A DNA stretch of 36,338 nt from positions 1-36,338 of the forward strand of contig CABMDO010000018.1 of NCBI GenBank assembly GCA_902384935.1. The letters run 5' to 3'. The stretch's first letter is position 1. Each line of letters starts with the position of its first letter. The translations under genes were made by a program, and so were the position numbers. Under the pieces are notes generated by a model. That model searched no databases, was not told the DNA's origin, and saw only the letters and a list, made by a program, of their open reading frames with translations. This document shows positions 9,721 to 19,446 of this stretch, one piece after another. This stretch comes from Candidatus Norongarragalina meridionalis (lineage in GTDB: Archaea; Micrarchaeota; Micrarchaeia; Norongarragalinales; Norongarragalinaceae).

Positions 9721-10521
9721 ATGGCCAAGCCCGAGCCCCGCTATGAATTTACCCACCCCGGGCTCATCTATCCGGAGCAGGAAGCGGACATACGCAGAGT
9801 ACTCGCCGCCATGCCTCACGGAAACAGGGCCGCTTTTGTCAGGGATTTCGACCACGGCATACCGCATGCGTATACCGTTCTCGAAATAGGCAAGGAACTG
9901 CTTGAGGACCCGCGATACAAGGGAAAGCTCAACCTGCGCGCCGCAGTGATCGCCGCCGCGCTGCACGACATCGGCAACTCCGCGAACCGCTTCCCGAACG
10001 CCTTGCCGAGCCAACGGCAGAGGGCGCGCGAACTTCACGAAAAAGGCGGCGCGGCTCGTCTTTCGAGGTATATGCGCAAGGCGGGTTTCGACGAGGAGTT
10101 GATAAGCGAGGTGGTTGAAGGCGTACGCGCCCACGATTCGGGACCGCACGAAACGCTTATCGCGCAGTTCGTCAGCGACGCGGACAAGCTCGCACGATTC
10201 CCGTGGGGCGTGGAGCGCACGTTCAGCTACGGCAGGACAAAAGCTGGCGAACGCCCGCTGTTCGACCCCGCGATAAGCGAAGAGGAGAGGCTCGGCGGAC
10301 ATCCCGTCAGGTTCAGCCACAGCAGGGATTCGTTCGGTTCGCTGTTGAAGACCGCCATGACTCCCGTCGGCGCGTTCTATTCGAAAACCGCAAAACGGAA
10401 AGTGGAGAAGCTCCGCGCGGAGTTCGTCGAGGACGTGCGCATGATGATAGCCGGGCACGAGCACGAGAGCGAAATGCTCAGGCTGCTCCAAAAAGCGCTG
10501 CGGAAAGGCAAGCGCCAGTGA
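9721..10521 (+). CDS. HD-domain metal-dependent phosphohydrolase
   Basis: A 266-residue protein with the HD signature spread in the usual order: H49 (GIPHAY), the H82-D83 pair (ALHDIGN) and a distal Asp near 155 (SDADKL). H138 and H143 (RAHDSGPHE) supply further possible metal ligands. HD proteins hydrolyse phosphate esters, commonly nucleotides or cyclic nucleotides, using a metal at these residues; the substrate here cannot be told. It is cytosolic, without signal or membrane segments. An AT-rich TTTTTAATT lies about 25 bases before the ATG and there is no clear Shine-Dalgarno site, which suggests a leaderless transcript. The predicted sRNA promoter begins directly at its stop codon. Confidence 0.85.
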   Translation: MAKPEPRYEFTHPGLIYPEQEADIRRVLAAMPHGNRAAFVRDFDHGIPHAYTVLEIGKELLEDPRYKGKLNLRAAVIAAALHDIGNSANRFPNALPSQRQRARELHEKGGAARLSRYMRKAGFDEELISEVVEGVRAHDSGPHETLIAQFVSDADKLARFPWGVERTFSYGRTKAGERPLFDPAISEEERLGGHPVRFSHSRDSFGSLLKTAMTPVGAFYSKTAKRKVEKLRAEFVEDVRMMIAGHEHESEMLRLLQKALRKGKRQ

Positions 10522-10530
10522 TTTTTAAGA
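10522..10530 (+). promoter_or_regulatory. TATA box for the candidate C/D sRNA (and possibly dus)
   Basis: TTTTTAAGA directly follows the stop codon of the HD gene. Its centre is about 25 bases before position 10551, which is where box C of the candidate sRNA begins. It is the only good TATA-like element in the 99-base gap before the dihydrouridine synthase gene. Confidence 0.5.
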
Positions 10531-10547
10531 CGGCGGCGCATATCATT

Positions 10548-10619
10548 GCATTGATGAAAACGTATGAGTTATGAGCTTTCGAAAGGAAGCGATGATTTGG
10601 ACCTTGAGTGCTGAATTGC
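10548..10619 (+). ncRNA. Candidate box C/D guide sRNA targeting wobble C34 of tRNAs
   Basis: In order: box C TGATGA (10552-10557), 13-nt guide, D' ATGA (10571-10574, one base off CTGA), 14-nt spacer, C' GCGATGA (10589-10595), 15-nt guide, box D CTGA (10611-10614). A GCA/TGC pair (10548-10550 with 10617-10619) can close the ends. By the rule that the target base pairs with the fifth nucleotide before D or D', the D guide reads ACTCAAGGTCCAA (complement of 10597-10609), an anticodon arm of tRNA-Leu(CAA) with C34 methylated. The D' guide reads CTCATA, a CAT anticodon loop, again with C34 opposite position 5. Archaeal C/D RNAs that make Cm34 in tRNA-Met are known. Neither target tRNA is in the window, and the D' guide carries at least one mismatch to a normal stem. 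Confidence 0.68.
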
Positions 10620-10620
10620 C

Positions 10621-11451
10621 GTGATAGGACTTGCGCCAATGGCGGGCTACACGGACTTGCCCTTCCGCCTACTGTGCAGGCGCGCCGGCGCGGAACTCTG
10701 CTATACGGAAATGATATCCGCGGAAGCGCTTATTCGCGGCAAGGCGGAAGTAATGACCAGCAAAGCTGACGTCCCCCTCGCCGTGCAATTATTCGGTTCG
10801 CGGGAACGCGCCATCATTGACGCCGCGACCATGGTTGAAAAAAAGGCGGACTTCGTGGATTTGAACGCAGGCTGCCCCGCGCCTGATTTGACGGATGTGG
10901 GCGCAGGCGCAGCGCTGATGAAAAAGCCGAAAACGCTCGCCTCTCTCGTTTCCGCCATTTCCTCGACTACCAAAAAACCGACCAGCGTCAAGATTCGGCT
11001 TGGCTGGAATGCCAACGAATGCGTGCGCATCTGCAAAATGCTCGACAAAGCGGGCGCCGCCCGAATCGCAATCCACGGCAGGACGATGAAGCAGGGATTT
11101 TCGGGAAAAGCCGAATGGAAAACCATAGGAAAGGCGAAGGAAGACGCGTCGTGCGAAATTTATGGAAACGGCGATTTGAAAAATGCCGACGATGCGCGGG
11201 AAAAAATCGCGGCATTCAACCTCGACGGCGCGTTGATTGGAAGGGCTGCGTTGGGCAATCCCTCTGTTTTCGGCAAGAAGATGGACAAGCGCAAGGCGTT
11301 TCTGGAATGGCTGCGCGGTTCCGAGGATTTGTCGGTTGCGAAACGGGAGGCGATGGCTTTTTCACGCGGCTTTCCCGAGGCGAAAAAAATGCGCAACGGG
11401 ATAGCGAGGGCGAAGGACGAGAATGCGCTGAAGGCTATTTTCGCCGATTAG
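10621..11451 (+). CDS. dus: tRNA-dihydrouridine synthase
   Basis: A 276-residue flavoenzyme of the Dus/COG0042 family, which reduces uridine to dihydrouridine in tRNA. The family landmarks are present in order: PMAGYTD at 6-12, VPLAVQLFG near 51, LNAGCPAP with catalytic Cys85, VKIRLGW with Lys124, IHGRT with His152, then NGD and GRAALGNP at the FMN phosphate site. It is shorter than bacterial Dus (about 320), with a reduced C-terminal RNA-binding helical domain. The start is a GTG: an in-frame stop sits 9 bases upstream and the PMAG motif leaves no room for a later start. The gene begins only 6 bases after box D of the candidate sRNA. Its stop overlaps that of the convergent small gene by 4 bases. 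Confidence 0.92.
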   Translation: MIGLAPMAGYTDLPFRLLCRRAGAELCYTEMISAEALIRGKAEVMTSKADVPLAVQLFGSRERAIIDAATMVEKKADFVDLNAGCPAPDLTDVGAGAALMKKPKTLASLVSAISSTTKKPTSVKIRLGWNANECVRICKMLDKAGAARIAIHGRTMKQGFSGKAEWKTIGKAKEDASCEIYGNGDLKNADDAREKIAAFNLDGALIGRAALGNPSVFGKKMDKRKAFLEWLRGSEDLSVAKREAMAFSRGFPEAKKMRNGIARAKDENALKAIFAD

Positions 11452-19270: not shown

Positions 19271-19446
19271 GCCGGGGTGGCGGAACCAGGTAACGCGCTA
19301 GACTCGAGGCACTTTTTTCTTTCTTTGATAAGAAAGAAAAACCTGCACTAAAAGAAAGAGGCAGGAGTGCACTAGAAAAGAAAGAGGGACTGCGCGAGCA
19401 ATCTAGTGAGCTTCGGCTTGTGCGAGTTCAAATCTCGTCCCCGGCG
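19271..19446 (+). tRNA. tRNA-Ser (anticodon CGA) with a 92-nt intron
   Basis: Exons 19271-19308 and 19401-19446 fold as a class II tRNA: acceptor GCCGGGG/CCCCGGC, D stem GCG/CGC, anticodon stem CTAGA/TCTAG, loop CT-CGA-G plus A from exon 2, an extended variable arm GAGC-TTCG-GCTT, and T arm GCGAG-TTCAAAT-CTCGT. The discriminator is G, as in archaeal tRNA-Ser; Leu would have A. The intron (19309-19400) sits after position 37. A CTCG/CGAG 4-bp helix with a 3-nt CAA bulge on the exon 2 side fits a relaxed bulge-helix element for splicing endonuclease; the helix on the intron side is weak. A TATA box lies upstream and a hairpin terminator downstream. CCA is not encoded. Confidence 0.93.
19309..19400 (+). 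other. tRNA-Ser intron forming a three-way junction; shared element copy 2
   Basis: Inside the intron GCACT (19309-19313) pairs with AGTGC (19366-19370) and encloses two adjoining hairpins: a 12-bp TTTTTCTTTCTT/AAGAAAGAAAAA stem (19314-19325/19330-19341) with a TGAT loop, and CCTGC/GCAGG (19342-19346/19361-19365). No base is left unpaired at the junction. GCACTTTTT and the 17-base AAAACCTGCACTAAAAG (19338-19354) are shared with 13507-13558. A degenerate second TGCACTAgAAAAGAAAGAGG follows at 19368-19387. Confidence 0.6.

Follow-up and report, generated by a model that had tools for sequence, protein, structure and literature searches.

A predicted stand-alone box C/D sRNA with two guides for the wobble cytidine of pre-tRNA-Met and pre-tRNA-Leu(CAA) in a Micrarchaeota genome

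The window, by which we mean the whole stretch of 36,338 nucleotides of a Micrarchaeota genome (G000) that was analysed, contains at positions 10551–10614 of the forward strand an intergenic box C/D sRNA gene, very probably that of a stand-alone, dual-guide RNA for C34 of pre-tRNA-Met and of pre-tRNA-Leu(CAA). This reading is drawn from sequence, namely from the boxes, the guides, matching targets in the same genome, covariation, conservation and the presence of fibrillarin and Nop genes. From the same material we infer transcription, RNP assembly, methylation and its timing, and an effect on decoding.

The sRNA lies in a gap of 99 bases between the stop codon (10519–10521) of an HD-domain ORF (9721–10521), its upstream neighbour, and the GTG start codon (10621) of dus. 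As the original prediction had it, boxes C, D′, C′ and D can be read directly and in order within this gap, all on the forward strand. Box C, TTGATGA at 10551–10557, has a perfect TGATGA core but lacks the preceding purine, and box D is CTGA at 10611–10614; TGATGA and CTGA are present in all homologues, in agreement with the terminal boxes of archaeal box C/D RNAs (RUGAUGA and CUGA). The internal boxes and the guides of about 12 nt typical of such RNAs were also found, with spacers of 13 and 15 nt. The first of these, the D′ guide (10558–10570), is followed by a degenerate box D′ (10571–10574). The earlier caveat that this box reads ATGA and not CTGA holds for the window copy; G003 has canonical CTGA, and CCGA, ACGA or CTTA are found in others. 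Box C′, a partial box, reads GATGA (10591–10595) and was recognised in the window and in the homologues; it is followed by the D guide (10596–10610). Boxes D′ and C′ are separated by a 16-nt hairpin, GCUUUC-GAAA-GGAAGC, with a GAAA loop (10575–10590). In the homologues these linkers are 10–49 nt long and differ in sequence (for example, GUUGC-GAAA-GCAAU in G001 and GCC-GAAA-GGC in G017), and a hairpin is predicted in 21 of 21, which argues that the C′/D′ motif is closed by a stem and not by a short loop.

A TATA-like element read from the sequence, TTTTTAAG (10522–10529, forward strand), stands about 22–29 nt 5′ of box C. Nearly all of the 21 homologues have a T/A-rich box about 25–30 nt 5′ of box C, within otherwise unrelated flanking sequence. 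The TATA box that had been proposed to start transcription at box C is thus present and its spacing is kept, and it is predicted to act as a promoter. A covariance search had also been named as a check; when it was run with Rfam, no family reached its gathering score at the sRNA, and a tRNA-Thr was the sole match in the window.

A DNA search of 40 relatives recovered the segment 5′ of dus in G001, a genome of the same genus, and in an unrelated neighbourhood in G003, from another genus of the same family. A first sequence model, built from these two copies and that of the window, matched genomes in four families of the order; two of its matches, L109 and L110 (E 0.03–0.05), were judged spurious because the box order is absent. 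In 16 genomes of the order there are homologues whose two guides both fall in register on C34. Run on 295 genomes of the class, a 15-sequence model (R3) gave matches in 224, the weaker of which were read in part. Among the matches read, the dual Met and Leu layout also occurs in families f9 and f21, and families f10, f14 and others keep the D guide GATCTTGAGTxCTGA together with a different D′ guide. We also noticed that this Leu(CAA) guide is present about once per genome over much of the class (R3 matches, e.g. L225–L231).

Targets were sought among all 37 tRNAs detected in G000, a 90%-complete genome. The tRNA-Leu(CAA) gene (G000:C19:42252-42371, L036) reads GATGGACTCAAG/GTCGTTG.. and the elongator tRNA-Met(CAU) gene (G000:C9:142086-142197, L030) reads GCCAGACTCATA/CGTGCG.., both with an intron after position 37, marked here by a slash. 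These 37/38 splice sites were deduced from bulge-helix-bulge geometry and set by hand: in Met, CUCA (32–35) pairs with UGAG close to the 3′ end of the intron, and in Leu, the partner of CUCA is UGCG, one position being mismatched. Since the pre-tRNA anticodon arms fold no better than shuffles, folding was used just for placing splice sites and loops. With the Leu splice site one nucleotide farther along (and hence G at 38), the D guide would pair over 12 nt with the mature tRNA.

The D guide (10600–10609) forms 10 contiguous Watson-Crick pairs with ACTCAAG/GTC of pre-tRNA-Leu(CAA), and the D′ guide (10560–10569) forms 10 with ACTCATA/CGT of elongator pre-tRNA-Met. In both cases the fifth guide nucleotide upstream of the box, G10606 and G10566 respectively, is opposite C34, as expected of an archaeal box C/D guide. 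For one guide against any of the 37 tRNAs, the chance expectation of an exact in-register 10-mer is 3.5e-5, and both guides have one. The retrieval of Leu(CAA) and CAT tRNAs from the genome itself, set out beforehand as a test, therefore bears out C34 as the target of both guides under the fifth-nucleotide rule, and with it the view that two guides in register on this nucleotide would be an unlikely coincidence. Pairing of the D guide with mature positions 31–43 of tRNA-Leu(CAA), which had also been suggested, proved wrong; the paired stretch covers 31–37 and then intron nucleotides 1–3. The D′ target, originally given as a CAT anticodon loop, is indeed C34 of a CAU tRNA and can now be narrowed to elongator and not initiator tRNA-Met. 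The initiator tRNA was rejected as a target, as its Watson-Crick pairing is limited to six positions (CTCATA), with perhaps a G-U pair at 31, and no tRNA-Ile2(CAT) is among the 37 tRNAs detected in this 90%-complete genome. Each paired stretch is thus made up of seven anticodon-arm nucleotides (31–37) and the first three of the intron, and since both run across position 37, the substrates are most likely the unspliced, intron-containing pre-tRNAs.

Other observations were made on the tRNA genes. At 19271–19446 of the window (forward strand) there is a tRNA-Ser(CGA) gene that ARAGORN mislabels as Ala, with an intron of about 90 nt made up of inverted repeats (CTTTCTTT / AAAGAAAG) together with CCTGCACTAAAA. 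Introns of similar sequence are found in further tRNAs of related genomes, at anticodon and T-arm positions, which suggests a spreading family of tRNA introns. A tRNA gene with the anticodon loop CTGTCAC, probably Asp-GUC (G000:C5:2346-2417, L037), is found by the Rfam tRNA model and missed by ARAGORN. In many relatives, elongator tRNA-Met apparently has two introns, at about 29/30 and at 37/38 (L193, L196, L197, L199, L201 and others; families f1, f2, f4 and f6).

The tRNA-Met intron of G000 carries a decoy-like ACTCAAG copy of the Leu(CAA) site. It lies in UACUCAAGGUCUGA, with which the D guide (10597–10610) pairs over 14 nt, including 3 G-U pairs. ACTCAAG or a near variant is found in the Met 37/38 intron of about 14 genomes (f1, f2 and f6), the remainder of the intron being unlike between families, and the copy could serve the D guide as a second place to dock. 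It is possible, if on balance doubtful, that this site is purposeful, the RNP gripping pre-tRNA-Met at two points and methylating Leu(CAA) in other encounters only. Slightly more tentatively, the D′ guide could dock at the anticodon/intron junction and the D guide of the same RNP on an intron mimic of the Leu(CAA) anticodon loop, within the pre-tRNA-Met segment ACTCAAGGTC, the copy having evolved to recruit the shared guide RNA and so tying both modifications together. Pairing as good as the 14 nt in G000 was reached in 4 of 50,000 intron shuffles and the joint total over 14 genomes in 0 of 5000, tests whose significance is overstated because the genomes share ancestry. With the D guide this intron scores 12.5, and none of eight other G000 introns exceeds 5. 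With G-U pairs included, the genome's own D guide pairs over 12 nt in G001, 12 in G023, 15 in G018, 12 in G028 and 11 in G015, and where the paired stretch departs from the Leu-type site in G015, G018 and G028, the changes can be accommodated by G-U pairs. In several relatives the motif also falls in a predicted hairpin loop, and the spread of the Leu guide across the class makes the intron copy look secondary. Against a purposeful second site, the motif is absent from genus g2, G003 and G014, just 6–7 nt pair in G008, G011, G013 and G021, and the predicted folds of G000 and G001 leave little of it single-stranded (unpaired probability 0.16–0.23). In addition, a methylated intron nucleotide would leave no lasting product. 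What remains as an alternative is that the ACTCAAG element has another role and that its resemblance to the Leu site is in part due to chance.

As to the form of the substrate, position 38 is A in the mature tRNAs, where the pairing of both guides ends at 37; past the mismatch with mature tRNA-Leu, the D guide of the window genome gains another four pairs. This difference at position 38 explains why one stem position per guide had seemed to conflict with a regular anticodon stem: the mismatch is real against the mature form, but the caveat is lifted if the substrates are precursors. It is quite improbable that the guides act on mature tRNAs and that the intron match is incidental. Seven pairs (31–37) do stay with either mature tRNA, and in some genomes the mature form is paired equally well, but the guides covary with the first three intron nucleotides. 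The Met intron starts with CGT in G000 and G001, CGC in G003, TGC in G002, G009 and G010, AGT in G028 and AGAG in G011, and the D′ guides vary in step with the intron start of their own genome. When guides were permuted against introns, with one genome per genus and relatedness thereby not fully removed, own-genome pairs at intron positions 1–3 numbered 23 of 27 for Met (13.5 permuted, p=5e-5) and 19 of 24 for Leu (14.0 permuted, p=0.0019). In 9 of 14 genomes the Met pairing is also 2–4 nt longer with the precursor. There are exceptions to precursor specificity: for Met in G018 and for Leu in G004 the mature form is matched equally well or slightly better, and G021 Met pairs weakly, over 6 nt.

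The Met 37/38 intron is present in all 14 sRNA-bearing genomes from which tRNA-Met was recovered. The sRNA was not detected in G006 and G007, where tRNA-Met has no 37/38 intron, nor in five other genomes, 61–88% complete, in which the intron is present. A free sRNA was likewise not detected in G012, G016 and G019, whose Met introns have guide-like sequence. In these introns (L112 in G012, family f3; L123 in G016; L122 in G019, family f7) an ATGAGT guide is followed by a D′-like box. The f7 intron adds a hairpin and an AATGA C′-like box, and that of G012 seems to hold a whole C/D RNA with two guides, its parts in permuted order. The three introns look like intron-encoded Met C34 guides comparable to that of Nanoarchaeum equitans.

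The homologues lie in unrelated neighbourhoods, yet the boxes and guides are retained. The gene that follows the sRNA in the window, dus (10621–11451, forward strand), encodes a tRNA-dihydrouridine synthase (Pfam PF01207, E=2.2e-66) and lies outside the sRNA. It is adjacent to the sRNA in 2 of the 21 homologous loci tested, both in the genus of the window. The abutment remarked on in the original prediction is therefore real, but confined to one genus, and the link is incidental. It is scarcely credible that the conserved segment is a 5′-leader regulatory element of dus and not a guide RNA: about 6 nt separate its end from the start codon of dus, and synteny is kept within the genus, but no dus match was found at the 19 other homologous loci (up to about 1.5 kb on each side), where boxes and guides are kept, and these unlinked homologues refute a dus leader as the main explanation. 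The chance that an intergenic gap merely resembles a C/D sRNA, for which the degenerate D′ and partial C′ might speak, is negligible given the homologues, the covariation and the own-genome targets.

Two partner proteins of such an RNA are encoded in G000, where genes for fibrillarin (PF01269, E=9.8e-70) and Nop (PF01798, E=1.8e-45) were found. The fibrillarin gene (G000:C9:144108-144722) is about 2 kb from the tRNA-Met gene (C9:142086-142197) addressed by its guide RNA. In the mechanism we propose, the sRNA would be transcribed from its own promoter and assemble with L7Ae, Nop5 and fibrillarin, the C/D motif and the hairpin-closed C′/D′ motif holding one guide each. Each guide would then bind an exon 1/intron junction, D′ in elongator pre-tRNA-Met(CAU) and D in pre-tRNA-Leu(CAA), and fibrillarin would methylate the 2′-OH of C34 in both pre-tRNAs ahead of intron removal. 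The methylation would be expected to restrict both anticodons to G-ending codons (AUG and UUG). Wobble-C methylation of two tRNAs would in this way be tied to one RNA and to the unspliced state. The guide–intron covariation would offer a computable reason for the persistence of tRNA introns in a reduced archaeal genome, and the intron copy of the Leu site yields a specific prediction, two-point substrate docking.

It is already known that C34 of Met and C34 of Leu(CAA) can each have an sRNA of their own, and that an sRNA can target the junction in pre-tRNA-Met. The window RNA belongs by its sequence to the pre-tRNA C34 box C/D kind, and what sets it apart, against the open-access literature, is that two intron-containing pre-tRNAs share a single RNA; this, together with a decoy-like intron copy of one target, is unusual. 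In Haloferax, Cm34 in the intron-containing tRNA-Met is guided by an sRNA (PMC2584109; PMC4033218). Haloarchaeal sR-tMet (Joardar et al. 2011) is listed in PMC4033218 and represented by 18 candidates in PMC2584109, and it is always outside the intron. As far as those descriptions go, the window RNA resembles it in being a stand-alone box C/D guide for Cm34 of the intron-containing elongator pre-tRNA-Met, in register over 10 bp and not intron-encoded, and differs in using its other guide for another pre-tRNA, that of Leu(CAA). Similarly, Pyrococcus has four C34 sRNAs for four tRNAs, Leu(CAA), Leu(UAA), Met and Trp (PMC7994747), of which sR49 serves tRNA-Met and sR50 Trp (PMC7994747, PMC2584109). 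The target nucleotides, C34 of Met and Leu(CAA), are shared with the window RNA, which has both guides on one molecule, whereas Pyrococcus has a separate sRNA per tRNA. In Pyrobaculum, the second guide of tRNA-targeting sRNAs has no target according to a review of the survey (PMC7994747), in contrast to the window RNA, both of whose guides have tRNA targets. The archaeal pre-tRNA-Trp intron harbours a box C/D RNA (PMC4090602) which likewise guides on an unspliced pre-tRNA; that guide sits within the intron of its own target, whereas the window RNA is a separate, intergenic gene. Finally, a box C/D sRNA has been reported in the tRNA-Met intron of N. equitans (PMC3491384). Like the window RNA, it is a box C/D RNA tied to the intron of elongator tRNA-Met in a DPANN archaeon, but it is intron-encoded and so closer to the Met introns of G012, G016 and G019 than to the window RNA.
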